From the NCBI RefSeq assembly GCF_032118995.1, contig NC_092668.1, forward strand, positions 4,815,501 through 4,879,500: 64,000 nucleotides of DNA. Reading direction: 5' to 3'. Below are positions 3,401-63,775 of the stretch, piece after piece. Within the stretch, counting starts at the first letter, position 1; every line of letters starts with the position of its first letter. This DNA comes from Asterias amurensis. Lineage: Eukaryota > Echinodermata > Asteroidea > Forcipulatida > Asteriidae. The position numbers and the translations under genes were made by a program. A model generated the notes under the pieces. That model was not told the DNA's origin. It worked only from the letters and a program-made list of their open reading frames with translations, and made no database searches.

Positions 3401-4842
3401 TCAGTCACAACAAGATACAATAAACACAGAGTTTCTACCCAGAAGACATGAAAATACCAATAACAACCGAAAGGGAACACTTTCAAAAAAAGAGGCGCTA
3501 TTCACAAAACATTGTTTTATGCAATGTCAAGAAATATGATTGGGGCTGGGCCGGGCAAACTCTCAAATTAAGGTCATCAACAGTTCCTGATCAATGTTGG
3601 GTAATCCACTAAGCCTATAGAGTGCTTAGGAAAAGCTGCAAGATTGATATAATTATTATTGTTAGAAATTCAATATGAAGAAAAAACAATTCAAAATGCA
3701 TTGTTCTGTTTGGGGAAAAAGGTCTATTTTTGAGACAGCACTGTTAACATCAGGATACACTTGCCCAAGTTTTTCTTACCAGAAATAAAAAGACAAATTT
3801 TGGCCCTGATCAAACCCGAAAGGAAAATATTCTGAGACCCCTGAAAAAATGAAATTTTGAGGGCAAAAAATATGGTAAAAATGTTGATTTTGCAAGTTCA
3901 AAAAAACATATTCCAATGCACGTTCTAAAAATAGCACAAGGGTAAAATTTATAGCAGTATTTTGTTGTCTCAAGTAAAGCCAAGGATGATACTTTGTAGT
4001 GATGTAAAAAGTTTTATGAAATATTTTTGTTTTTTGGTGGGGTGGAGTTGTAAATATTAACTAAAAAAAACAGTTTTTCAGACCCCAAAATCGGACTAAA
4101 GTGGCCTAAACACAAATGAACTGTTACCATGGCAACGTGTTATATTATGATTTGAAATGTAAATGCTGTTTATTTGGACCCCAAGTCCCTACCACCCACA
4201 AAGTATCAGAAAAATATTCCTTTTTTTTTACCATGGACACGTATGTCGATATTATGTGAAAAGACCCTTAAAAAGGCATTTTTCACGTTTTGGGGAAAAA
4301 AGTCTAGTTTTGAGGCAGTACTGTCACAACAGGATACAATTGCCCAAGTTTTTGACACCAGATATGGAAAGACCAATGTTGGCCCTAATCACAGCCGAAA
4401 GGAAAATTTTCTGAGACCCCTGGCAAGTTGACATTTTGGGGTCCAAAAATAGGGTAAAAATGTCGATTTTGCAAGTTCCAAAAACATACTGTAATGCATG
4501 ATGCAAAAATAGCACAAGGGTGATATTTAAAGCAATAATTTTTTTTCTCAAGGGAGGCCAAGGATGATACTTTGTAGTGATATAAAAGGTTTTTTGAAAT
4601 AATTTTGCATTTTGGTGGGGTGGAGTTGTAAATATGAGCTAAAAACCAGTTTTTCAGACCCCAAAATCGGCCTAAAATGGCCAAAAAACAAAATGAGCCG
4701 TAACCATGGCAACGGGCTATATATAGAATTGAAAATGCAATTTTGTTTACTTGCACCCCAAGGCCCTTCCACCCACAAAGTATAAAAAAAATCAATTTTT
4801 TGACCGTGAGCAACTATGTCAATTATTTACCTGAACTGACTC
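451..4842. mobile_element. 4.4 kb foldback transposon with TTAA target duplication
   Basis: The two ends are inverted copies (GAGTCAGTTCAGGTAAATAA and its complement) flanked by TTAA at 447-450 and 4843-4846. The arms run about 451-2340 and 3110-4842. The outer 600 bp are almost identical and the inner parts clearly diverged. Each arm contains an internal direct repeat of about 600 bp (480-1060 and 1060-1640, with a third decayed unit near 1880-2060). No transposase motif seen; the open frames in the arms are mirrored and low in complexity. TTAA suggests mobilisation by a piggyBac-type transposase, but the termini do not match the piggyBac ends I know. Confidence 0.8.
2699..2925. mobile_element. 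Family A MITE, internally deleted
   Basis: Both termini present; the central GGCCGACC hairpin is missing. It sits in the spacer of the foldback element, so it inserted after that element arrived. Confidence 0.8.
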
Positions 4843-4999
4843 TTAATACTATTATATTAGTATTTTATTAATGAGCTGACCAGTGTGTTTACGAAAACAG
4901 TAGAAACATTCGGATAACAACACTCCATCACAACAGGGGTTTTAATTAAAGAGGTACCAAGTAGAAGAGCTCAAACCGGAAGCCCGGGTTTGAAAGCCC

Positions 5000-25985: not shown

Positions 25986-25987
25986 CT

Positions 25988-26141
25988 GGGTGCGTTCGTT
26001 CAGCTTCCCCGGGTCGACCCCGGTGTGTGGCGTTTTTTTTTTTCAGGACGAACGTGTGCAGATTATTACCCACGTTCGTCCTGAAAAAAAAAAACGCCAC
26101 ACACCGGGGTCGACCCAGGGAAGCTAAACGAACGCACCCAC
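25988..26141. mobile_element. Family I palindromic MITE
   Basis: GGGTGCGTTCGTTCAGCTTC and GAAGCTAAACGAACGCACCC ends. Arms include GGGTCGACCCCGGTGTGTGG; second copy at 40907-41060. Confidence 0.8.
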
Positions 26142-26379: not shown

Positions 26380-29300
26380 TCACTCTACGGGCAGAGGATC
26401 CAAGTCACCGTCGGTTAAATGCATCTTTGTCTCCCGGTAGGATTCTGCAAAAGAAGGAATTGTTAAGTTAGAATTTTTGTTTGGAAATATCTGACAAACA
26501 TCATTCGATTATCTTTCAACTTGGAAAGACAGTTATTTTTAAGTTGAACTATTCACTTAAAGGGTACAATGTCCACAGATCAACATTAAATTTACACAGT
26601 TTGAAGATTATGATAGTAGAAAGGTTCCCTTGAAATTTTATTTACTGAGGTGTTGTAGTTTTTGAGAAATGAGTAAAGGTAATAATTTTCGTCTCAGTTT
26701 TAGCATGTAAAAACGTATTAACCAGTTATGCTATGGTTTTGGTCTAATATCATAACTGCTTAAGGGGATTTTACATGCTAAAATAGTTTTGGTCTCATAA
26801 GACCAAAATTATTTTGTGACTTGTTTTACTCATTTCTCAAAAACTACACAATCTAAGTTAGTAATATTTGAAAGGGAAGCTTCAAACCCTGTAAGTTTAA
26901 TGTAAATCTGTGGACGTTTTGAAAAAGTACCCAAATCCTATAATGTAAATCTGTGGACATTTTGAAAAAGTACCCAAATTCTTTAAGTTAGTAACGAATC
27001 TATACAAGTTGAAAGCCAGGTTCTTCATGCGAAGTAACGCGATGCGAATTTTGACGTCACATGGCTGTTTTCGCGGTGAATGTTTCTTGTTTTCTGTTGT
27101 CTCTATGTGTTTGCATAATAGTTTGCAAAAAATAAAAAAATGGAACAACAAAAAGTGTACAAAAAATGGGACAATCTTCGAGAGTTTTCAATAATAATGT
27201 TGGTCCAATGTGGTCCATCATGAATATTATTCTGTTAGGGGCGATTATGTGACCATCCACATCAGCTAGCATAATAACCCCCTAAGTGTGTGGGCTTGGT
27301 TTTGTGTCACTTACCCGCGACATTTCGCAGAGCTGCAAGATAACCAGCAGGGGAAGTGTCGGTATTGTCGTTCGCCGTCTTTTTAGCCTGGTAAAGTGTC
27401 AATTCCTCATCGAGCACTCTTTCGACTATCAACTCTAAAATTACAACAACAAAAACCAATACTATTAAAACAATATTGCACTGTTATTAAGTCAATCGAT
27501 TACTGCATTTTGAATGTGAAATGACATGTTTTAGTCGTCCGTTTACATCCTCATGTTAATTTAATGACCTAGAAATGGGTGAAACTAATGAAGCAGCACT
27601 TTAAAGTCACCTGGAAATAGAATTTTCTTTCTTTCAAACATAAGAGTATATGCTTACGAACAATAAAACAATTTGTTTAGTAATTGTTTGTCACGATTTA
27701 TATGTTTACAAAATATATAAAGTTGTTTGGGGGCTGACTCCGCCTACCCCTTTTGTGACGTCAATCGAGGCAGACTTTGCCTGCAATGCGTATAATAAAC
27801 ACACGTGCAAAGTACATGTAGGTCAAAGTCGTGAGTTGGTACATTTCAAAAAGTGTTTTTCTGCATTCAGCAGCAATACACCTGGTTTTGAAACGTACAA
27901 ACTCACGACTTGGTCCGTACATGTACTTGCAATTGTGTTTACTATACGCATAACAGGCAAAGTCTGCCTCGATTTACGCCACGAACAGCGCCCTCTCGGG
28001 TCGGGGTCTACTCTTAAATTTGTAAATAACATAAGAACTGATTGTTTAAAACCTTAGTTAACTGTTTATTCACACACACTCATCAAAACACATATAAAAT
28101 TATTAGTGACAAAAGCTTTATTTTGAAAAAATACCACTTCCAGGTGACTTTAAAGGAAGAAGAAGAAGAAGAAGAATCCGAGATAATTAATACCCCATAG
28201 TTTTTATAACTATAAATTTTTTGACGAGAGGGCATGCCACCTAGCTAGGAGCATGACAATAGATGGTCAAGCAAACGACCAACTGACGGTGACCCGAAAA
28301 TGGGTCGGGCCCCGCAGGAACCCGTAATCCGGGTAAAATCTGACCAGGGATTTGTGGTGAAGTAGGATAAATGAGTGTTTATGGAAAAGTTTCCGTATTA
28401 TGCTACCACTTTTTCGATATGAAATAAAATAGTATCCGATTTAGCTCATTGAGATTACCTTTTTGTAAAAAAGAAAATGAGTGAAAAGGTGGTGGCAGCT
28501 AGGGTACGGAAGGTTAGCCGTGTTTATATACAATGTACCACCAGTGGCCTTTGATCGTTATAAAAATATTGATTTCAAAATGTGTTGACGTACCTAGCTC
28601 AGCGCGTCTGGCGATGGAGCCTCGTGATCTAACATATGATCTTCTTCTGTAGAAAATCGCCCCTGTGAAAAATACATAGAATCCACATTATCATCATCAT
28701 CATCATCGGTCGACTGCACAGCAGGCGGACACAAGCTTTTCCCATTCTCTCCTGTCTTGTGCTATTCTCCGATTATCATCCATAAAATAAAATTGTTTTT
28801 AAACCAAGCAGAAGCAACGGGGGTCAGCAGGTGAGCATACATTAACAATGTTCAAATTAACAAAAACGTAAACAAAATAATTGATTTGAAATCATTTGTG
28901 ACGTAGCTTGTGAATGGCAATCGAAGGCGACGTTATAGGTCAATATTAACACACACCTTTAAAACTATAAGTGATGTTCAAGCTTTGCTTAATTAAAAAA
29001 TGATAATAATAATTCACTGTGATAGAAAGTTTTGGGAACAACAATGTGTAAACTCTTTTGGGAAGAGTGTTCTGAAAAAGGAGCCTATAGTATGTACAAA
29101 CATTGACTGCTTCGAGCGCTACGGTTAAAACTACGATTCCGAGGTGATCCCGGGAGCGTTATATTTCCCGTGCGCCTCGGGAAAATGGAATGGTCCGGGG
29201 ATCACCGAGGGGGTGATAGTTTTAATCATAGCACAAGTTAAAGCAGTCAATTTGTTTTATAACACCCCAACAGACTAAATTATCATCTTCGTACCATAGA

Positions 29301-30379
29301 TATAGAGTAGAATAACTAGACAGGCCGCGCGTACATACGCGGGTTCTGGCATGGGGGGCCGCCATTGCCTATCTCCCGTGTACATTTTCTGTGCGTTGCC
29401 GTCAGCACGTGACTTTTTGCCGTCAGCACGTGACATTTAGCGCGTCAAAGGCCTATCTCCCGCGTTCATTTTTGCGCGTCGCCTTTCGAACGTAAAATTT
29501 TTACCGCGTCCATGGCGAACAATTTTATTACACAGGTAATGGCGCGTATGTACGCGCGGCCGATCTAGTTATTCTATTCTATATCTATGGTACGAAGATG
29601 ATAATTTATATGCTTCGTACACGTAAAGTTCGTACGCGCGTTTCAGATACACAGATGCACAACTAATGGGTTCAAGGTGGGCAAAAAGACTTATGGGTAT
29701 TGCACGTCGTGTGATAGTCGACTATCACACGGCAAACCATGCACTATCGCACAGCAAACGATGTACTATCACACGGCCGCCGTCTGCAGTAAAACTAAGA
29801 CATACCATGACGCGCTCTAAACCAATGAAAAGGCAGAATATTTGTAAAGGGTGTTATACATTTAATAGGCCCTACTTATGGACGCGCTGTACTTTAGCAG
29901 CTCCACAACTTGCTCTCCACAAAAACCCAGATTGATCCTGCTTTGGTAACATTCAAATAGCGCCCTCTTGTGAATCATCATCCTCCAGCCCGTGTTATTC
30001 CCATAACAATGGGGGACACAGAATCTCCGGCTGACAGATTTTCCTGGGACACCGCAACCTATAGCCGATGTGACCTCTGACGTCACACGAAAACTATAAC
30101 ATGATTCGCGCGCATACCGCCGGGCAAAACCTTTGTGTTTTTGGCAGCCAGCTATAGAAAGTGTATGCAATCTTACCATGACTACGGGTGTTTTTGCCCG
30201 GCGAAACATCACATATACAGTGTTTTTTTCAACAGAGGGCGTTTTAAATGTAAACATAGGTCACATCGGCTGTAGCTTTGCCCTTGACTCTTCAAAACCG
30301 TTCCGTGACTTTTACACAGCTTACCAGTGTCGGGTACAAGAAGCAACACAGCAACGAGGACTACCAGTAACAATTTCAT
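26380..30379 (-). CDS. Small secreted cationic peptide precursor, copy 1 (unrecognised family)
   Basis: Not recognised. Coding exons in transcript order: 30379-30325, 28662-28594, 27434-27315, 26444-26380. They total 309 nt, 102 residues plus TGA. All three introns are phase 1 with AG/GT borders. Exon 1 encodes a signal peptide, MKLLLVVLVAVLLLVPDT, and extends 5' to an acceptor at 30429, so the leader is spliced. Exon 2 encodes an arginine-rich stretch (GAIFYRRRSYVRSRGSIARR, about +6) with no cysteine. Exons 3 and 4 are acidic (about -7 together) and hold DTSPAGYLAALRNVAE and KMHLTDG, both shared with the paralogue about 11 kb upstream. Signal, basic peptide, acidic tail is the layout of many antimicrobial peptide precursors; a neuropeptide or a non-peptide secreted protein is also possible. 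RRR and RR could be convertase sites. The gene model is well supported by the paralogue; the function is inference. Confidence 0.75.
26557..26983. mobile_element. Family C palindromic MITE, in intron 3 of peptide gene 1
   Basis: TTAAAGGGTACAATGTCCAC start, ending ACCCAAATTCTTTAA. A 42-bp stretch with GTAAATCTGTGGAC is tandemly duplicated at 26899-26983. Confidence 0.7.
27603..28153. mobile_element. Palindromic MITE in intron 2 of peptide gene 1
   Basis: Terminal inverted repeats AAAGTCACCTGGAAATAG and CACTTCCAGGTGACTTT; arms also pair at GAGGCAGACTTTGCCTGC, ACACGTGCAAAGTACATGTA and AGTCGTGAGTTGGTAC. Confidence 0.75.
28383..28519. mobile_element. Family N MITE with 8-bp target duplication (hAT-like)
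   Basis: GGAAAAGTTTCCGTAT and GTACGGAAGGTTAGCC ends, flanked by GTGTTTAT at 28375-28382 and 28520-28527. Confidence 0.8.
29095..29862. mobile_element. Family P element containing a nested Q MITE
   Basis: Reverse-complement relative of 42516-43018: a hairpin with GTTTTAACC and CTCGGGAAAA arms at 29125-29235, ACCCC at 29270, and GAGCGCGTCATGG-type end near 29815-29862. Lies in intron 1 of peptide gene 1. Confidence 0.65.
29277..29608. mobile_element. Nested MITE Q
   Basis: Long terminal inverted repeats: AAATTATCATCTTCGTACC and GGTACGAAGATGATAATTT, continuing inward through AGAATAACTAGA and CGCGCGTAC. Confidence 0.8.
30061..30272. mobile_element. Family H palindromic MITE
   Basis: ATAGCCGATGTGACCTCTGA start and TAGGTCACATCGGCTGTAG end; 52 bp downstream of the first coding exon donor of peptide gene 1. 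Confidence 0.75.
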
Positions 30380-30465
30380 CTTTAATCCGGCTCTTGGTGA
30401 ACTCTTCAACCAATCAATCAGACTGTTGGCTGCAAGAAACAATTCCAAGTAACGTTTATTTTCTT

Positions 30466-30818
30466 CTAAAGACACTGGACAGTATTTGGTACTTACTCAA
30501 AATAATTGTTAGCATAAAAATTTACTTGGTAGCGAGCAATAGACTGCTAGTGGTCGGGTAAAACATTTTGAGAAACGGCTCCTCTGAAGTAACGTAGTTT
30601 TTAGAAAGAGGTAATTTTCTCACTCAAATAATGTTTTTTTTAGGCATAGAAAGCACAGAAATTTGTGCAACAAGAAACCCTTTTGTTTCATTCTTTTCTT
30701 GCAACTTCGATGAACAATTTTATTGTGTCAACATTTCAAAATTCAAAGGTTTGTTTTTTATGCACATACACCGAGTGAGAATACTTCCCTATTGCCAAAC
30801 GTGTTTAGTGCATTTAAA
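30466..30818. mobile_element. Family B MITE, diverged
   Basis: CTAAAGACACTGGACAG start; joins family C2 at a shared TTTAAAG. Lies just upstream of the peptide gene 1 signal exon acceptor. Confidence 0.7.
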
Positions 30819-31195
30819 GCCAATGGACCCTTTCGGTTCAGAAAAAAATAAAAGTTCACAGATTTACAAATAACTTACAGGGTTTACAGAAGGCAATGGT
30901 GAAAGTCTTCTCTTGAAATATTTTTCCATGAAATGCTTTACTTTTTGAGAAAACAGCAAAACAATATAAATTCTCGTTAACGAGAATTACGATTTATTTT
31001 AAATACATGTCATGACACGGCGAAACGCGCGGAAACAAGGGTGGGTTTTCCCGTTGTTTTCTCCCGACTCCGATGACCGATTGAGCCTAAATTTTCACAG
31101 GTTTGTTATTTGATATAGAAGTTGTGGTACACAAAGTGTGGGCCTTGGACAACACTGTTTACCGAAAGGGTCCAATGGCTTTAAATGCTTTAAAG
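30813..31195. mobile_element. Family C2 palindromic MITE
   Basis: TTTAAAGCCAATGGACCCTT start and AAAGGGTCCAATGGCTTTAA end; same element at 44225-44598. Confidence 0.75.
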
Positions 31196-31339
31196 GCTTT
31201 TTAAGACAAGTGTTTTAATAGGAACCAAAACTATCTCAACTGCTATCTTATAGGCCAGAATCCAGCCCCAAAACCGAATACTAAACATTTGACTGAATGA
31301 ACTCACATAAATTACTTAACTAGTCAGAGTTATTGAGAA

Positions 31340-31636
31340 GGCCGTGGACACTATTGGCAATTACTCAAAATAATTGTTAGCATAAAAACTTACTTGGTAA
31401 CAAAACAAGCAACTAGCTCTCTCAGAAGTAACGTAGTTTTCGAGGGAAAAGTTTCCGTATGGCGCCACCACTTTTTCATTCGATATGAAATAATATAGTA
31501 TCTAATTTACCTCAATGAGATATCCCTTTTTGTAAAAATGAGTGAAAAGGTGGTGGCGCCATACGGAAAGTTATCCTTTTCGAGAAAGCCACTAACCTGT
31601 TTGAATTTGATTTCGAAACCTTAGATTTAGATTTTT
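31340..31636. mobile_element. Family B MITE interrupted by a family N element
   Basis: B blocks on both sides of 31445-31576; the interrupted word is the family's GTAGTTTTCGAGAAAG. Confidence 0.75.
31445..31576. mobile_element. Family N MITE with 8-bp target duplication
   Basis: GGAAAAGTTTCCGTAT and ATACGGAAAGTTATCC ends, flanked by TTTTCGAG at 31437-31444 and 31577-31584. Confidence 0.85.
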
Positions 31637-31659
31637 AAAAAACTATGAAGTAAACTTAC

Positions 31660-31890
31660 CCGGTAAGTAAGAACGGGTCTTATCGGATGCAGAAACACGA
31701 TGAGAATAGTGGAGATCAAACATGCAACAAGCTGCAAAATGTCTCTTGCAAACTTATGTTACATACACCCGCGGCCGAATTCCAATGTAATTTTAGTTGG
31801 TTCAAGCCTGAGCGCGTTATTTGAAAGAATGTGTTTGAAACCTTTCACTATGTATGAGCAGCAGAGCATGAAAGAAGGGCGTTGGCTCTG
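31660..31890 (-). other. Untranslated leader exon candidate a of the peptide genes
   Basis: Homologous over about 230 bp to 33998-34210 and in part to 45030-45110. All end in a minus-strand GTAAGT donor after a shared CGTGTTTCTGCAT motif. It could serve copy 1 of the peptide gene, whose first coding exon starts at an AG acceptor (30429). The 5' limit is not determined; no signal-peptide exon lies between this and leader b, so it may be a relic of a partial duplication. Confidence 0.45.
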
Positions 31891-31999
31891 ACCAAACTCA
31901 TTACTGTAGGCAGGCTACTGTGGAGTAATCACTTTGCAGCCTAAAGACGTTTTTTATTCTAATAGCTCCAGTCTCCACAGACTGGCCCTCTGGCTTTAT

Positions 32000-32690
32000 T
32001 AGTCTGGTTCCCAGACCCAAAAAACTCCGACTAGGCTTTGTCGAATTTAGGGTCCGGTATCACCCAAAAAAGGAGGAATTCCTCCTTTTTCGAAGTTATC
32101 CGAAATGTTCAGAATGTGTTGTCGTCAACATTCGGACAGTATCGTTGATGGTCGGTATTAAATCATATTGTCAGTCCTGTCGGTCGTAGATCCAGGAGTT
32201 TGTATGCCAGCTATTGTTATTTAAAGCCAATGCAGGCGTTGTACAAAGCGATGCGACAAGTTCAAAATATAAACCTGGAAAATCGCTCCGGGATCTGGTA
32301 AGTTTTTGTCCTTTTTCTTCAAAAATATTTTCTCAGTATGAGTCAACTCAATGGTGTTTTGACTTGAGTTTTCATTAGAGTTAGACATTGAGGATTAAGT
32401 GTCATGAGTTCTCAAGTGGTAAAAATGGGGCAAATCTGGTGACTAGCTGTCGAAATTATACGTGTTGAACCAGATTGTCATTTGCCGATCAAAAGAATCT
32501 CGTAACCCTCCGGCCTGGCGGCCATCGGGAGGAGGGTTACGTTATCGCAACTAGTGCAGACACGGTTTCACTGAAGATGACCCCCGACCCAGACAAGTTG
32601 CGCCATGCGCTATTTTTAACCGTGGGTGATACCTGACCTAAGATTTTTTACAAGAGACGTCAAGGAATCTTTGGTCAGGGAACCAGACTA
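32000..32690. mobile_element. 691-bp element with TAGTCTGGTTCCC ends and 9-bp repeats
   Basis: TAGTCTGGTTCCC and GGGAACCAGACTA termini, flanked on both sides by TGGCTTTAT (31991-31999, 32691-32699). Most of its right half plus the right flank is shared with family K copy 1 at 21170-21832. Confidence 0.55.
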
Positions 32691-32807
32691 TGGCTTTATC
32701 CGCAAGTAGGTCACTTTTGGGGGGCTGGCCCCAGAGGTCATGACGTGACTACGAGAGCGGCGAGTGTGATCGTTCGATTAGCTCTTGTCAGGAGCTCACC
32801 CGAGTGA
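32247..32807. repeat. Family K segment, copy 2
   Basis: Co-linear with 21170-21832. Includes the 41-bp block around TCAAGGAATCTTTGGTCAGG that copy 1 lacks. Overlaps the 32000-32690 element, so K may be that element plus duplicated flank. Confidence 0.65.
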
Positions 32808-32851
32808 GCACCGCGGGGTCGACCCAGGGAAGCTAATCGTACGCACCCATA
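32808..32851. mobile_element. Family I fragment
   Basis: GGGTCGACCCAGGGAAGCT and GTACGCACCC only; one arm end. Confidence 0.55.
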
Positions 32852-33027
32852 ATAGTTTCATTGGATAAACGTGCAGTGACATAGCAGAGCCCTTTTCGAA
32901 ACCACGGCTTCGACTCCGGATTCGGCTCAGGCTAGCTTGGCCCCACGGTTGTTTTGACAACTGCGCGTGCTTCGCGTACGTGATCATGGCTTCAGACGAG
33001 AAAAGGAGACTGAAGCCGAATCCAAAG

Positions 33028-33251
33028 TAGTCTTGGCCCAAGACGATGGTGCTTGTTCTGGATAGTGTACTACGCGCGGTTGAATCGCCAAAGCGCGCCC
33101 GCCACGGTATGATTTAGTTACGTGGACGGCTTGAAATCTAGACTACACTCTGCAAGCTACCATCATGGTAGCTTGCAGGGCGCGCTTTGGCGATTCAACC
33201 GCGCGTAGTACAATATCCAGAATCAAGCACCATCGTCTTGGGCCAAGACTA
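33028..33251. mobile_element. 224-bp palindromic MITE with 9-bp target duplication
   Basis: TAGTCTTGGCCCAAGACGAT and ATCGTCTTGGGCCAAGACTA are inverted ends; AATCCAAAG flanks at 33019-33027 and 33252-33260. Nine-bp duplication is typical of Mutator-like elements. Confidence 0.85.
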
Positions 33252-33621
33252 AATCCAAAGCCGAAATGGTGGCTACGTAAATAATAATATAATTAATAAT
33301 TCAGACTATATTCAGCAGATATAATAACAGTTGTATCCCTAAATTGACTAGTCTGCTTAATCACAAATCTTAGTGTTTTTATCTGTTGTGCTCTGTTTTC
33401 TTAACAACTCTCTGGCTGACCCAGTTTTCAGTTTTTGTTTTTGTTTTTAAATTGACTGTTCGTTTTTATGTCTAAAGTCGCATATGATGAACTCGTGGGT
33501 ACGAATGGCGCGCACCTCGGGCATTATCATAATACGTAATCAGGGTCCAAGTAAGGAGTTTCCATCCCAGGGTTAACTATTGTAAACATGGTTGAAAATA
33601 AAGTAAACCATGGGGACAAGG

Positions 33622-33986
33622 TTGCCCTGGACACTATTGGTACTAATTACTCAAAATAATTGTTAGCATAAAAACTTATTTGGTACAAATACAAGCAATT
33701 GAGAGCTCCCTCTGAAGTAACGTAGTTCTCGAGAAAGCCACTAAAATATTTGAATTCGATTTCGAGACCTCAGAATTAGATTTTGAGGTCCCGAAACCAA
33801 GCATCTGAAAGCACACGTACACATCTGTGTGTGACAAGGTTGTTTTTTCCCCCATGTTTCTCGCAACTTCGACGACCAAATGAGTTCACATTTTCACAGG
33901 TTTGTTATTTTGTGCATATTATGTTGAGATACACCAAGTGAGAAAACTGGTCTTTGACAATATTACCGAAAGGTGTTCAGTGTCTA
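33622..33986. mobile_element. Family B MITE
   Basis: CCTGGACACTATTGGTAC start (outer bases decayed) to GGTGTTCAGTGTCTAAA; ends 12 bp from leader exon b. Confidence 0.75.
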
Positions 33987-33997
33987 AATAAACTTAC

Positions 33998-34210
33998 CTA
34001 GTGAGTAAGAACGTGTCTTATTGAATGCAGAAACACGATGAGAACTTCAATAGTGAGTGAACATCAAACATGCACCAAGCTGCAAAGGTCTCTTGCAAAT
34101 TAATGTTAACACCAGCGGACGAGTTCCAATGTAATTTAGTTCGTTCAAGCTTGAGCGCGTTATTTGAAAGAATGTGCAAGAAAGCGGCTATGAGCAGCAG
34201 AGCATGAAAG
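33998..34210 (-). other. Untranslated leader exon candidate b of the peptide genes
   Basis: Second homologous leader. The donor lies at 33997/33998 (exon ends CACTAG, intron GTAAGT). It aligns through AACGCGCTCAAGCTTGAAC (minus strand, near 34152) to leader a. A MITE of family H with a CRE palindrome begins 24 bp further upstream at 34234. No long open frame with a signal sequence. Confidence 0.45.
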
Positions 34211-34233
34211 AAATTTGTACAGATCTGTGCGTT

Positions 34234-34442
34234 ATAGACGATGTGACCAATGTTTACATTTAAACCGCCCTCTGTTGACAAAACACTATATACGTCATGT
34301 TTCGCCGGGCACTGAGTTGCGTAGTCGTAGTAAGATTGCGTACACTTTCTAGCTGGCTGCCAAAACACAAAGGTTTTGCCCGGCGGTATGCGCGCGAATC
34401 ATGTTATGGTTTTCGTGTGACGTCAGAGGTCACATCGTCTAT
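34234..34442. mobile_element. Family H MITE upstream of leader exon b
   Basis: TATAGACGATGTGACCAATG start and GGTCACATCGTCTATA end. Holds TGACGTCA and AGGTCA at 34418-34432. Confidence 0.75.
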
Positions 34443-34961
34443 ATTTACTGCCCTGGCATGTAACTATTTCAAAGATTTGCTGTTGTGATTTATTGATCAT
34501 AACTCCAAAAACATTCAGGTACCAGTATACTGATCCGTCTGGGCGAATTACACCCCTGGCAAAATAGCCTTTTAAACGATGTCTTTATTACACTTCCGTA
34601 AAACAAAAAAAGAAAATCCACCACAACAAAATTAATTGTATTGTATTGAATTTTATTTCCACAAAAAAACCCGAACAAACCCCGTACCCTGGGGAAGGGT
34701 TACAACAATAACAACATTTTAACTTACAATGCAACAAAGACTAATAAAAACAAGTACGTATACAATCTCAGTCCCCAATTCATAATTAATTAATTTCTTG
34801 GAGCATGACATGTTACGAGTAAATCGTGCTTAGATTTGATTCAAGCCCGTTCTCGTGTAAGAGGTCCCTAACTAGCAAACAAGCCGTATAGTGCCCACTC
34901 GCGGTCAAAATGTAGCTAAATATTGTGGTCCCGCGTGCAAAACAGGGCGGGGAAATGCACA

Positions 34962-35102
34962 TTAAAGGGGCACGTTGCCCTATTAAGGGCGAATTGGTCT
35001 ACCAAAGTGTTTGGAACCGTCTGTTATGAAATGAATATGGTAGGAAGATGTTTTTAAAGTAGAATACAATGATTCACACTAATATGCCTCAAAATTGCAC
35101 AG
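34962..35102. mobile_element. Family A MITE, left half
   Basis: TTAAAGGGGCACGTTGCCC start through TGCCTCAAAATTGCACAG. Confidence 0.7.
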
Positions 35103-35104
35103 AT

Positions 35105-35657
35105 GACTGAGACGCCTATTTCCGACAGTCTCCGGCTCCGTTCGCGTGTAGTCTTGGTGCAACACGTTTTCCTTTCACACACAGCGCAGCACAAATAAAC
35201 TACGCGAGAGCTCTACTTTCTTACATGTCTTATAGCCTGCTAAGCACAAAAACTCGCTGAGCACAGAAAAGTATTGCTTATTATAGGTTTTCTCGGTCAA
35301 TTTTGGAAAATATGAGCAGCCAATTTAACCAACAGCTTATTCTATTTGGCACGAAATTGAATGCTACTGAAAAGGGTAATTCAATTTCTTTTTAAGACTA
35401 GTCAAATGTACTTTTACGTTATTCGATTTAACAAAATAATCATTCAATTTAACAATTCATCAAAGCAGCATTCAAATTCACAGACGCTTCTTGAGGCGTG
35501 TGTGTCACGAAAAAGAATTACGATACGCTAAATTGAACAGAGTACTAAAGGAATTTGACTCGACTCAAAGCGAAATTGAACGGCCGAATTCTGAATTTGA
35601 AACGCAGTAACAAGTTGAGAGGCAAAACAGTTATAATTCGAACGGCACGCATGAACA
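35105..35657. other. Intergenic, no gene seen
   Basis: Unique-looking sequence; repeated ATTCAATTTAACA words at 35330-35600. Nothing recognised. Confidence 0.3.
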
Positions 35658-36039
35658 TTAAAGGAACACGTTACCTTGGATCGGTCGAGTTGGTCTTTGA
35701 AAAGCGATTGTTATAAAATGCACATGGGTAGAAAGATGTTGTAAAAGTAGAATACAATGATCCACACAAACATGCCTCGAAATTGCACGGTTTTCCTTTT
35801 ACCTCGTCGACTAACACGGTCGGCCATTTATGGGAGTCAAACTTTTGACTCCCATAAATGGCCGACCGTGTTAGTTTGCACAGTAAAAGGAAAACCACGC
35901 AATTTCGGGGCAAATTTGTGTGGATCATTGTATTCTACTTTTACAACATCTTTCCAACCATATGCATTTTATAGAAAACGGTTACAAGACGCTTTTTATA
36001 TACCAACTCGTCCGATCCAAGGCAACGTGTTCCTTTAAA
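35658..36039. mobile_element. Family A MITE, complete
   Basis: TTAAAGGAACACGTTACC to GGCAACGTGTTCCTTTAA; central hairpin GGCCATTTATGGGAGTCAAA at 35822. The 85- and 93-codon frames on opposite strands here mirror each other and are not genes. Confidence 0.9.
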
Positions 36040-36129
36040 TTGACTGCTCATTTGCCGAATTTGACCGACAAAACCTATACAAAAACAGATAATTATACCA
36101 TCCACAATTAGATTAAGTTTACATTGTTG

Positions 36130-36613
36130 CGACTGCATGTCCTACTCATTTTTTTGCTTAGCAAAGAAATTTGTCAAGCAGTATTTTCTGCTTAAAGGCA
36201 CTGATGGACACCTTTGGTAATTTTCATAGACCACCAGTCTTCTCACTTGGTGTATCTGAACAAAATGCATAACAATAACAATCCTGTGAAAATTTGGTCT
36301 CAAGATTGGTCGCCGAAGTTGCGAGAGAGTAGCGGAAGAAAAAACACCCTATAGTTGCACATTACGTTGTGCGCTTTCAGATGCTTGAATTCGATACCTC
36401 AGCTGAGGTCTCGAATTTAATTCAAATATTTTACTGAGAAGTTACTTCTTTCTCAAAAACTACGATATTCGATCCAGAGGGAGCCGTTTCTCACAATGTT
36501 TTATACTATCAACAGGTCTCCGTTGCTTGTTACCAAATAAGTTTTGATGCTAACAATTATTTTAAGTTACTACCAATAGTGTCCAGTGCCTTTAACAGCT
36601 TTATGAAATTGGG
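36130..36613. mobile_element. Family E repeat split by a family B insertion
   Basis: E sequence ends TATTTTCTGC at 36191 and resumes CAGCTTTATGAAATTGGGG after 36595; removing B and one TTAA restores the E word seen at 7640-7668. Confidence 0.75.
36192..36595. mobile_element. Family B MITE with readable TTAA duplication
   Basis: TTAA at 36192-36195 and 36592-36595 flank AGGCACTG and CAGTGCCT ends. Lies just 16 bp past the stop codon of peptide gene 2 on its 3' side. Confidence 0.9.
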
Positions 36614-36628
36614 GGCTGGATGTTTGTT

Positions 36629-37367
36629 TTACTCTTCAGGCAGAAGATCCGTATTGACGTCCAAACCACCGTCGTTGACATGCATCTTTGACTCACGAAA
36701 GCCTTCTGCAAAAGGGAGAAATGTTAGTTAAAAATCTGGGTTTTGAGTGTTGTTGAATAATATTGAAAGATATGATTTGAAACTCCATATATAGTGGCAA
36801 CCCGATACAGAAAGGTTTTCGGTAACACCATGTAATGATAATCTCTAAATGAGTTTGGGAGGTTCTGAAAAGAACCGTTGGTTTCAACGCTCTGATCATC
36901 TTCTGGATCGCCTTCAGAGCATATACCATTTTAGTTCTTAGGGTTAATCTGTTATTGCCAATCTTCCACAGCTGCTACCAAGTGTTTTTGTTCTTATAAT
37001 GTCGCTCTATTTTTACATTCGTTCCATTTTGTTGTACATGTTATATACTTTGCTTGGTTTGTTTCTTAATAATCTTATGGGTTATATTTTGTTTTATCTA
37101 CCAGCGTTCAGTTTTGGTCTATTGTCATTATCTTGCCATAATGTTTGTGCCAGCTCGGAGTTTAATGATTTTAATTTAATGTGGCGTTTTGTACTTTTAT
37201 ATGTTATTATATCTACATTTTTAAAATTCATGCTTTTATTTTCTGTATTTTTATAAACATATATGTTTTTTGTTGGAGGGGTCTGGGAGGGCACATCGCT
37301 TTGATGACAGTTTTTAAAACTTTTGGCTTACCCTGGACGGCCCCTGCCAACAAAGAATTATGTCCGA

Positions 37368-37407
<40 letters not shown>

Positions 37408-40400
37408 AAAACGTCGAGTTGAAACCAACGGTTCTTTTCAGAACACCCCAACTCATATTTATAGAGATCATCATAGTGACATGGTGCTACCGAAAACCTT
37501 TCAACTGAAAGGTAACATGTTTTCAGACAGTGTTCTGTTGCACATCAATCAGTAATCTTTCAATTTGGAAAGACGGTTATTTTCAATTAGTTGAACTATT
37601 TCACTTTCTAGTTTGTAACGAATCTACCAGTAAGTGTACATGCGTTCGGGCAGGGCAGGGAAAAGCAGCCATTTTGGATTTCATAGTGACTCTTGAAAGT
37701 GCGTTTTGACTGTGCAGATCGATCAATGGACCAATCCGGCCTATCAATCAAACTGTGCGCGTTCACCCATTTGACCAATCACAGCAATGATTGTGGTCGG
37801 ACAAACTCGGTCATGCGTGCGCGTATATTTGGCACGCGCGGCAGAATCGTGCAGAATGTCATTGGGAGTGTTCGTACGCGTGTCTTGCTCACGTGCGCGG
37901 TGGGCGGAGCGTAGTGGAAAGCCGGAACGGTCCATTCATCTAGGGTCCCCTTAGCAAATTTTCAGTGATAGAGACATTGCCACTTCGCAATACTTTTTGA
38001 GTGCCATCTTTTTCGTCCCCTGATGACGTCATAATCATTGCCCAAAATTTCGATTACTGCAACATGTTTACGAATCTACAGTTGAGTGCATTGCACAAAA
38101 TCTACACTTTCATCAATAGAGCCACTTCAAAGAAACGGTTGAATGACAATTAATTTGATCGCGTTCGTTACTGTATTTTGTGCTGGTCGGTGTGGCAGGA
38201 GATTCTGTACCCAGAGGTTCAGTACCCCCCCCCCCCCCACCCCGTACGGCAAAACTTCTTCTGATAGCGTCCTCTTTTGATTCATCCTCATCCAACCCAC
38301 ATGATAATTTCCCATAATGGGTGGCCGAATCTCCGGCTGAGACACTAGAATAGACCCTTCCCATGAAATATGTAATTTTCACATAGCGCGTGCGCACTAA
38401 CGTTTTGGTTGGCAACATGAGGGAACATCGCGCTGTTTTGTACACGGCTAATGGGTGCGTGACGCAGACGCAATTGCGCGTCTGCTTAGTGCACAACTCT
38501 ATGGCGTTTGCCAACCAACAGGGTCTGTACGCATGCGTGAATGTGATTAGCATATTTCATGAGAAGAGTCCATTCCCTGGGACACCGGCCTGGGACACCG
38601 GCAACTACAGGATTTGAAAGGTTTCCCGTAATCGGGCTTTAATAATCACTTACCCACAACATTTTGCAGAACTGCAAAATAACCAGCAGGACTAGTATCG
38701 ATCTTGTTGTTCGTTGTCTTTTTAGGCTGGTCAACAGTCAGTTTTCCATCAGGGCTGACAACGCCTTCGGCCATTGACTCTGAATATTATGTAATTTATA
38801 AAAAGATAGTTATAAAAAAATATTGCACTGTTATCAGCTGAGATCTCAAATTTAAGCATCTGAAAGCACACAACTTGGTGCGACAAAGGTGTTTTTCTTC
38901 AATTGTCCTCTCTCGCCACTTCGATGAACAATTGAGTTCAAATTTTCACAGGTTTGTTATTTTAAGCAAAATTCTTGAGAATAATACACCAATGAGAATA
39001 CTGGGCCCAGTTTCATGGCTCTGCTTACCGTAAGCACAGAATCGGCGCCTATGGAAGTAGGGAATTCTGTGCTTACGGCAAGCGTATTTCACGGGTTAGC
39101 GGCGAATTCAGCGCGTGCGTACGCCACGTTATACTAGGCATTCTACGCTTTCAAGGCTAGGGCAGAAATTCGGCGCTTGCACGTATAAGCAGGGAATCGT
39201 GATCGTAAGCGCAGAACTCGGCGGAAGCAGAGCCATGACATTGGGCCCTGGGGTGGATTTCACAAAGAGTTAGGACTAGTCTTATCTCGAGTTAGGACCA
39301 GTTACTCGTACAGCTACTTAGGACTATCCATGCAATTTGTATATCTCCTAAGGACTAGTCCTAAGTTAGGCTAGTCCTAACTCTTTGTGAAATCGACCCC
39401 AGGTCTTTGACAAATACCAAAGGTCTCCAGCGCCTTTAAGTTTGTGTGTGTGTGGGGGGGGGGGGGGGCTTCTAAAAGCAAGGCTGTTGGATTGAGCCCC
39501 CCCCCCCCCCCACGAATTTGTGTAAAAATAATTATACCTATCTATGAAAAAGAACAATACATTTTTATAATAGACGCACAAACTAGTTACGCTAGGAGGT
39601 CTCGACTACAATACTGGCACTCTGCTGACATACCTAGCTTAGAGAAGCGGGCGATGGAGGCCGATGAGACAGCTGGCCGCCTCCTTCTTCTTCGTCTAAG
39701 CCACGCCCCTGAAGAAAATAATCCACTTAAATCAGTTAAAAAACAAAAAGTAATAGCTCAGCTGTAGGCTACAACTGCTCAAGACGAGTGGAGCTCTCAT
39801 GAAGACGAGCAGAGTATACTGTTCGAAACGTCGAGACCACACCGACTCAATTTCCGAGACAACGCTCCTCCTCATAGGGATTTTACCATGGTTGTACCCG
39901 CAACTATTATTCTACGCAAAAAAGCAAAAGCTTCACACATCACTAACTCAATATTAACCCAGAGCTATGTCACTTGGCACACCGTACCGATTTTGTTCAT
40001 AAACAGTTTCCATATCTATACCTCCATGCTTCAAATAAACCTTTTCTGATCGTTTTCTTTTGTTTCTCTTCGCACCTTGCACCGCCGACCAACGACGTCA
40101 CCAACATACCATCTAAGTGTGGCTTCCTATGTGAGCTGTATTGGGATTTACTTTACTCACTATAGTGTTCATAGGTTTTGGAGGTACGTCGGTCGGTCGA
40201 CCACGTCAGAGCCAATGAACAGCTCTCCCTGGGTAGCTCCACCCACAACTAACATTCATGACGAACGTTGCACAAGGTTCCTTTATTGTAAGTAACTTAC
40301 AAGGTGAATATTCATGCATCTGCCTCTGCGATGACGAAACACCTGGGCCCAATTTCATAGAGCTGCTTAGCATAACAATTTGCTTAGCATGAAATTGCTT

Positions 40401-41268
40401 CCTTGATAAAAACAGGATTACCAAACAAAATTTCCACGTGATTTTCAGGATAAGCAAACAACAGTTGAATACCAGTAACAAGCAATATGCAACAAATGGA
40501 CATTTTGGTTGGTAATCCTGTTTTTATCAAGGAAGAAATTTCATGCTAAGCAATTTGTTGTGCTTAGCAGCTCTATGAAATTGGGCCCTGGTAATATGCT
40601 TACCCGCGCTATTCAAAGGCGAATGAATAGACTGTGTGCTTGTGACATACCGAGTGAAACCGTGGAGGTAGAAATATACCTCCATGGTCCAACGGATGAG
40701 TGGAGACAGTCCTGCACAGTCTATGAAGCAATAAAGACTTATTATGGTCTCATCAGGGGTGCATTTTTAATAATAGAGGGGACTCTTTGTGTTACTTGTT
40801 ATGTCAAAAGCGCGTCTATTCATTTGCCTTCAAATAGCTCGGGTAAGCTTACAAGTTTTTTGTCATCGCAAAGGCCGATGCATGAATATTCACCTTGCTA
40901 ATGGTGCGAACGTTTATCTTCCCTGGGTCGACCCCGGTGTGTGGCGTTTTTTTTTTTTTACCAGGACGAACGTGGGTAATTATCTGCACACACTCGTCCT
41001 TGGAAAATAAACCGCCACACACCGGGGTCGACCCAGGGAAGCTAAACGAACGCACCCAATAAAGGAACCTTGGGCAACGTCTGTCGTGTATGTACATATT
41101 ATGTGTAATTGTGGGTGGAGCTACCCAGGGAGGGCTGTTCATTGGCTCTGACGTGGTCGACCGGCCGACGTACCTCCAAAACCTATGAACACTAGTGAGA
41201 CTCAATGGCTTACCAGTGTCGGGTACAAGAAGCAACACAGCAACGAGGACTAACAGTAACAATTTCAT
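36629..41268 (-). CDS. Small secreted cationic peptide precursor, copy 2 (unrecognised family)
   Basis: Paralogue of the gene at 26380-30379. Coding exons in transcript order: 41268-41214, 39708-39634, 38779-38654, 36705-36629. They total 333 nt, 110 residues plus TAA, again with three phase-1 introns. The signal peptide MKLLLLVLVAVLLLVPDT differs from copy 1 at one residue, and the adjoining untranslated sequence is also similar, pointing to a fairly recent duplication. The exon-2 segment is GAWLRRRRRRPAVSSASIAR then FSKL: eight basic and no acidic residues, and it matches copy 1 only at its start (GA, RRR) and end (SIAR, L). The acidic tail (about -6) keeps IDTSPAGYFAVLQNVVE and KMHVNDGG. 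Exon 1 continues 5' to an acceptor at 41321. No cysteines, no membrane segment beyond the signal. Function unknown; a host-defence peptide is the first guess. A possible additional exon lies in intron 3 near 38257-38339. Confidence 0.75.
36815..37500. mobile_element. Family M repeat split by a LINE-like tail
   Basis: M blocks at 36815-36935 and, inverted, 37405-37500 (GTCGAGTTGAAACCAACGG). Confidence 0.5.
36945..37400 (+). mobile_element. Retroposon 3' tail with poly(A)
   Basis: T-rich sequence ending TGTCCGAAGTTT followed by about 27 A at 37373-37400. Resembles the 3' untranslated end of a LINE; no reverse transcriptase seen. Lies in intron 3 of peptide gene 2. Confidence 0.5.
38257..38339 (-). 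other. Possible extra exon or decayed exon in intron 3 of peptide gene 2
   Basis: Minus strand: TCTCAG acceptor, then an open frame encoding GDSATHYGKLSCGLDEDESK and EDAIRRS, followed by a GGGTGGGG donor-like site. It would keep phase 1 at both ends. A related but interrupted sequence is at 29955-30045. Alternatively a dispersed repeat. Confidence 0.3.
38350..38578. mobile_element. Palindromic MITE V
   Basis: AATAGACCCTTCCCATGAAA and TTTCATGAGAAGAGTCCATT ends; arms pair at GTTGGCAAC and GACGCAGACGCAATTG. The empty site is seen at 30035-30045. Confidence 0.7.
39004..39242. mobile_element. Family F palindromic repeat
   Basis: GGGCCCAGTTTCATGGCTCT to GCCATGACATTGGGCCC, with TTACCGTAAGCACAGAAT and GTAAGCGCAGAACTCGG arms. 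Confidence 0.65.
39243..39402. mobile_element. Family D palindromic repeat
   Basis: GGGTGGATTTCACAAAGAG and CTCTTTGTGAAATCGACCC ends. Confidence 0.75.
39456..39510. repeat. G-run and C-run pair
   Basis: About 16 G at 39454-39468 and 14 C at 39499-39512 with a 30-bp spacer; hairpin-forming. Confidence 0.7.
40345..40592. mobile_element. Family E palindromic repeat, complete
   Basis: GGGCCCAATTTCATAGAGC and GCTCTATGAAATTGGGCCC ends, with TTGATAAAAACAGGATTACC arms. Confidence 0.8.
40907..41060. mobile_element. Family I palindromic MITE
   Basis: CGAACGTTTATCTTCCC start and GAAGCTAAACGAACGCACCC end; nested in element U. Confidence 0.75.
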
Positions 41269-41394
41269 CTTAAATCCCGCAGGCTCTTGTGGTGCAGTCT
41301 TGAATCAATCAATCAGTCAGACTGCAAGAAACAATATTCCAATGTTTGAACGTTTATATTTTTGTAAACACAATTCCTTCTAGCAGGTATAAAC

Positions 41395-49119: not shown

Positions 49120-63605
<14,486 letters not shown>

Positions 63606-63659: not shown

Positions 63660-63775
63660 TCACAAATTTTAAATAAATTTTGGGGTTGAACAAAGAATTG
63701 ACTAATGTGGGATTCGAACCAACGACCTACGGATTAATGTGCCGGCGCTCTACCAACTGAGCTAACTAGCCCTAT
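63660..63775 (-). mobile_element. tRNA-derived SINE, family T2
   Basis: Minus strand: TAGTTAGCTCAGTTGGTAGA (A box) and GGTTCGAATCCCAC (B box). Cloverleaf-like head but no clean 3' acceptor pairing, so not called as a functional tRNA. Confidence 0.65.

Follow-up and report, generated by a model that had tools for sequence, protein, structure and literature searches.

In a 64,000-nucleotide window of the Asterias amurensis genome (contig NC_092668.1; C21:4815501-4879500 in our numbering) we find two genes on the minus strand, here called A and B, that form a real-looking pair produced by duplication of a small secreted peptide-precursor gene. Each gene has four coding exons, an open frame and phase-1 introns, and the products are 102 (A) and 110 (B) amino acids long. 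The best reading of the pair is that it encodes precursors of a cationic host-defence peptide, for which we see close to an even chance. Its gene structure and its charge layout (+6/–7 in A and +9/–6 in B) are parallel in the two copies, with exons, phases and frames intact in both, which argues for this reading. Amino-acid change between A and B is greater in the basic second exon than in the acidic tail.

If transcribed and processed as we propose, the genes would work as follows. Exon 1 would supply the signal peptide of a small secreted prepropeptide, and exon 2 would yield a short arginine-rich peptide, linear and opening with aromatic or aliphatic residues (IFYRRR.. or WLRRRRRRR..). The acidic tail encoded by exons 3 and 4 would counterbalance the basic charge and keep this peptide inactive until proteolytic separation. 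Once released, the peptide would most likely bind anionic microbial surfaces or enter cells, in the manner of linear cationic defence peptides.

Gene A exon 1, 30325..30379, minus strand: ATG and putative signal peptide MKLLLVVLVAVLLLVPDTG, one base different from gene B
Gene A exon 2, 28594..28662, minus strand: cysteine-free basic segment AIFYRRRSYVRSRGSIARRAEL, net charge +6
Gene A exon 3, 27315..27434, minus strand: acidic linker, KK site, DTSPAGY
Gene A exon 4, 26380..26444, minus strand: KMH..DG tail and stop, with AATAAA immediately 3' of the stop
Gene B exon 1, 41214..41268, minus strand: ATG and putative signal peptide MKLLLLVLVAVLLLVPDTG
Gene B exon 2, 39634..39708, minus strand: AWLRRRRRRRPAVSSASIARFSKL, with a run of seven arginines, net charge +9
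Gene B exon 3, 38654..38779, minus strand: linker, KK site, DTSPAGY
Gene B exon 4, 36629..36705, minus strand: acidic KMH..DG tail and stop

A preliminary description of this interval had proposed the matching four-exon structure, the phase-1 introns, the intact frames of 102 and 110 residues, signal peptides one residue apart and shared SPAGY and KMH..DG motifs; rereading of the minus strand bears out all of these, both motifs being present in both genes. Since the summed coding length before every intron leaves a remainder of 1, all six introns are in phase 1. They run from GT to AG, with donors starting GTAAG, GTACG or GTATG; their lengths are 1662, 1159 and 870 bases for gene A, and 1505, 854 and 1948 bases for gene B. 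The exons differ in length between the genes by 0, 6, 6 and 12 bases (exons 1–4), each a multiple of three. No AATAAA was found in the 1500 bases after the stop of gene B, where one ATTAAA occurs at 207. Intron 2 of gene A holds a GAA-type microsatellite (28155-28176).

Homology, divergence and a third copy

When each exon peptide was searched by tblastn within a 278,501-base stretch (C21:4601000-4879500), A and B paired with E 2.6e–7 for exon 1, about 2e–8 for exon 3 and about 6e–4 for exon 4; chance is excluded as a source of these sequence similarities. For exon 2 the value is about 5, so homology is not recognisable from this exon alone, and we pair the two on the basis of position, phase, the common SIAR...L end and a third locus, copy C, described below. 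At the DNA level the two gene regions share eight matching blocks, three of them over exons 1, 3 and 4. Of the five outside exons, one joins intron 3 of A to intron 3 of B, and the others are repeats as far as inspected. Similarity at exon 1 begins about 95 bases upstream and stops 6 bases inside the intron. Around exon 3 it takes in 53 flanking bases on the 5' side and 8 on the 3' side, and the match at exon 4 has its start 41 bases ahead of that exon.

Nonsynonymous (dN) and synonymous (dS) divergence was estimated per exon from NG86 counts. Exon 3 gave dS 0.44 and dN 0.27, exon 4 gave dS 0.58 and dN 0.22, and together they have dN 0.25 and dS 0.48, a ratio of about 0.5. Nonsynonymous change is significantly higher in exon 2 (24 of 48 sites versus 30 of 141 in exons 3 and 4, rounded; Fisher exact test, P = 0.0003). 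The variation lies at the front of exon 2, while its end (SIAR...L with the donor) is conserved. The signal exon has a single nonsynonymous change over 41.2 sites and no synonymous change over 15.8 sites, although in the other exons about 35% of synonymous sites have changed; at the rate of those exons the probability of none is about 0.001 in one post-hoc test. Such a lack of synonymous change suggests either constraint on the DNA itself or gene conversion at the signal exon (30325-30379 and 41214-41268). Judged by their sequences, A and B are old duplicates.

Copies were sought in the whole genome (491,506,623 bases, 23 contigs) with whole-protein, tail-protein, DNA and 3-mismatch pattern searches; reversed control patterns gave 0 matches. 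A, B and copy C are the sole family loci among the best candidates, to which scoring was confined, so more diverged copies may be missed. Single searches are incomplete: one whole-protein search returned no B exon at E 0.001, and the DNA of B exon 3 matched only B. A match on contig C12 (E 5.67, 33% identity) was taken as chance.

Copy C lies on the opposite strand, about 190 kb distant, and retains exon 2, exon 3 (93% DNA identity to A including flank) and, in part, exon 4. The match in its 5' region continues to 36 bases ahead of the ATG position, where the sequence begins to differ, and exon 1 was not found in the 278.5-kb stretch. Because exon 1 is missing and a stop follows SKKR in exon 4, we regard C as decayed. 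Over the surviving exons A and C differ by dS 0.13 and dN 0.12, less than A and B (0.36 and 0.29), and C therefore looks like a younger copy of A. The A–C dN/dS near 0.9 fits an unconstrained copy, without proving it; for exon 3 dN is 0.075 and dS 0.054.

The state of copy C raises the question of whether A and B are themselves a functionless, decayed pair. Both frames would stay open by chance with a probability of about 0.10 in a neutral simulation on substitutions alone, which is not very rare, and open frames are thus weak evidence by themselves. Against decay stand the in-frame length differences, the preservation of all splice sites, the dN/dS of about 0.5 in exons 3 and 4, the almost unchanged exon 1 and a conserved upstream element, and we find this explanation distinctly improbable.

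A hairpin element with arms of 70 and 53 nt (97% and 91% complementary) is present in two copies, just beyond gene A (25987-26140) and within intron 1 of gene B (40903-41056). Upstream of copy C there is a fragment that shares the GCTAAACGAACGCACC end. The element may have helped duplication.

The upstream element spans the following regions.

Conserved region 5' of the gene A ATG, 30380..30474, minus strand: TATA-like AATAAACGTT and acceptor-like or initiator-like TTTCTTGCAG
Counterpart conserved region 5' of the gene B ATG, 41269..41372, minus strand: identified by sequence comparison

Upstream of A, B and C alike we see AAATAAACGTT or ATATAAACGTT, then TTGGAAT, then TTTCTTGCAG, which ends 50 (A) and 53 (B) bases upstream of the ATG. 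The arrangement may represent a TATA box with a start site, or the acceptor of an intron in the 5' untranslated region (UTR); myticalin genes of mussels have a 5' UTR intron immediately before the ATG, according to the excerpted gene descriptions (PMC5577615). Position 41321, the end of the interval in the preliminary description, is the base next after TTTCTTGCAG, and that interval therefore includes 53 bases of presumed 5' UTR.

Charge layout, signal and processing

Neither protein contains a cysteine. Exon 2 carries a net charge of +6 in A and +9 in B, and the remainder of the mature chain –7 and –6, respectively; the earlier range of +6 to +8 for a cysteine-free exon 2 thus holds for A but is too low for B. 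By inspection, the N-terminus consists of K2, a hydrophobic run of ∼13 residues (L3-V15) and a PDTGA end, and by the –3,–1 rule the signal peptide is probably cleaved after ...VPDTGA.

As had been supposed, no recognised family emerged from Pfam, PDB or a literature text search. A Pfam scan of the spliced proteins gave no model at cut-off, hmmscan up to E 10 gave no piscidin/pleurocidin-type peptide family, and a text search with six peptide strings gave no match among 5.39 million papers. The below-cut-off Pfam matches were to unrelated models (Tad 0.068 for B; DUF4330 0.042, Smim3 0.14 and Tad 0.21 for A), and the best PDB matches (E 1.1 for B; E 0.35 for A, a peroxiredoxin) were discarded as chance. 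A clear match to a characterised non-peptide family, which would speak against a peptide precursor, was likewise absent from Pfam and PDB. Within the reach of these searches, the secreted-precursor part of the original proposal is supported; its host-defence part we infer.

Could the hydrophobic stretch be a short membrane anchor rather than a signal peptide? The products would then be membrane micropeptides with cytosolic arginines. An arginine cluster just after a hydrophobic stretch fits the positive-inside rule, and the weak Pfam matches falling on this stretch (Smim3 0.14; TadE/G-like 0.068 and 0.21) are to membrane proteins. However, some 13 residues are short for a span and signal-like, and the polar PDTGA end resembles a cleavage site, so that we consider an anchor very unlikely.

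Apart from the arginine run in exon 2, a single basic pair is common to all copies: a dibasic site in the middle of exon 3, which is KK in A and B and KR in C. At the junction of basic head and acidic tail an RR is present in A and C (ARR) and absent from B. Beyond the conserved tail, A and B have neither a further convertase site nor a C-terminal Gly for amidation. A cut at KK/KR, if used, would separate a tail of about 42–46 residues from an arginine-rich head still carrying some of the acidic linker; convertase cleavage inside the arginine run could also occur.

These sites allow another reading, in which a convertase cut in exon 3 releases a conserved, probably helical SPAGY..KMH..DG peptide of about 42–46 residues with a signalling role, exon 2 being a spacer. 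The site is kept in all three copies, and A–B identity is higher from KK onward (15/23 in exon 3, 13/21 in exon 4) than before KK (7/17) or in exon 2 (10/22). An AlphaFold model of the exon-3 peptide has helices at residues 2–20 and 27–37, though with a mean pLDDT of 62.7 and from two sequences. Starfish precursors Arnp11, Arnp15a and Arnp18 are comparable in having 103–113 residues and a dibasic site, yet the excerpted descriptions of the group mention cysteines and disulphides (PMC4772807), while A and B are cysteine-free. No named peptide matched in Pfam or PDB, the Gly needed for amidation is lacking, and the conserved tail could equally serve as a pro-region. KK is also a weaker convertase site than KR. 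We judge signalling rather unlikely, though three features leave room for it: the helical moment of exon 2 does not exceed that of shuffles, RR is missing at the basic/acidic junction of B, and the tail is the better conserved part between A and B.

Both ideas might also be combined. A two-product starfish precursor, from which a dibasic cut gives a fast-diversifying arginine-rich effector together with a conserved helical SPAGY-KMH peptide that has its own role, for example in alarm signalling, has a small chance of being right; if true, weapon and signal would come from one transcript.

Alternatively, the protein might be secreted and used uncut, for example as a small protein that binds polyanions or mucus or is adhesive or mineral-related, with basic head and acidic tail. 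In agreement with this, the head/tail junction of B lacks a dibasic site and one chain carries opposite charges. Since the head changes amino acids more than the tail, which would be unusual for a structural protein, we see such a use as unlikely.

Known precursors and the case for host defence

Comparisons with published peptides follow excerpts of the cited papers. By layout and tempo the pair most resembles myticalins and, in part, piscidins, without sequence kinship; by animal group, the nearest are centrocins and PpCrAMP. Myticalins combine a conserved signal, a hypervariable arginine-rich cysteine-free centre and an anionic C-terminal extension with a phase-1 intron; their antimicrobial activity was tested on synthetic peptides (PMC5577615). 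Like these and the modiocalins (Mytilus, Modiolus; PMC5577615, PMC12294457), our genes encode a putative signal followed by a variable linear segment and an anionic extension, have phase-1 introns, are clustered, and are accompanied by a pseudogene without the signal region, a loss also reported for one myticalin pseudogene (PMC5577615). Unlike the starfish pair with its four coding exons, the mussel genes have two, a single one of which encodes both signal and mature peptide, and in nearly all of them a dibasic site, absent from B, marks the border between mature and anionic parts. Neither SPAGY nor KMH motifs appear in the excerpted myticalin and modiocalin descriptions.

Piscidins and pleurocidins of fish share with the pair four exons, three introns, the order of signal, basic mature part and C-terminal prodomain, and a mature part that diversifies while the signal does not (PMC2830478); their mature part is, in contrast, rich in Phe/Ile and amphipathic. 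Sea urchin centrocins are echinoderm cationic precursors with conserved prepro and interchain parts and a variable active chain, but their prosequence precedes that chain and a disulphide joins heavy and light chains (PMC4805251). PpCrAMP, from the sea star Patiria pectinifera, is antimicrobial but cysteine-rich, with a predicted beta-hairpin (PMC11767717). As each known system fails at least one defining feature, we assign the pair to none. By analogy, we think that it works like a myticalin-type precursor.

Several observations weigh against host defence. Both genes are predictions from DNA sequence. For A–B exon 2, dN (0.85) is nominally above dS (0.50), but these estimates come from one gene pair and 22 codons whose alignment is uncertain, and between A and C the order is reversed (dN 0.19, dS 0.27). 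The helical moment of exon 2 (0.21 and 0.18) is not above that of shuffles (P = 0.71 and 0.76), which leaves an amphipathic helix unsupported. In gene B the codons of the arginine run are GA-rich and might have arisen by repeat expansion, and B, unlike A and C, has no dibasic pair at the basic/acidic junction. Only two intact genes were found, versus 215 myticalin precursors described in the excerpted source (PMC12294457). Finally, the piscidin prodomain varies like the mature part (PMC2830478), unlike the conserved tail seen here.

It should be noted that PpCrAMP is the only known sea star antimicrobial peptide according to the excerpted 2025 review (PMC11767717). As a candidate that is linear, rich in arginine and free of cysteine, and whose exon borders are exactly defined, the pair is directly testable, and A. 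amurensis RNA-seq of 13.47 Gb has been reported (PMC10625585, in excerpt). If confirmed, it would add to the mussel and fish examples of a signal / variable cationic / anionic layout a further one without visible sequence kinship.

Other features of the window

Only three Rfam matches occur in the window, all tRNA: 63699-63771 (minus strand), 55207-55279 (minus) and 62791-62873 (plus). ARAGORN identifies the first as tRNA-Asn, gives a doubtful tRNA at 62782-62873 and lists none at 55207. About 10 kb from gene B, an open frame (51665-51973, minus strand) contains a stretch that matches Pfam PARG_cat_C above cut-off (E 1.2e–11) and is either part or a remnant of a poly(ADP-ribose) glycohydrolase gene. 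An inverted repeat (447-1317 and 3976-4846) has arms of 871 nt that are 99% complementary, each with a nearly identical open frame of 142 residues.

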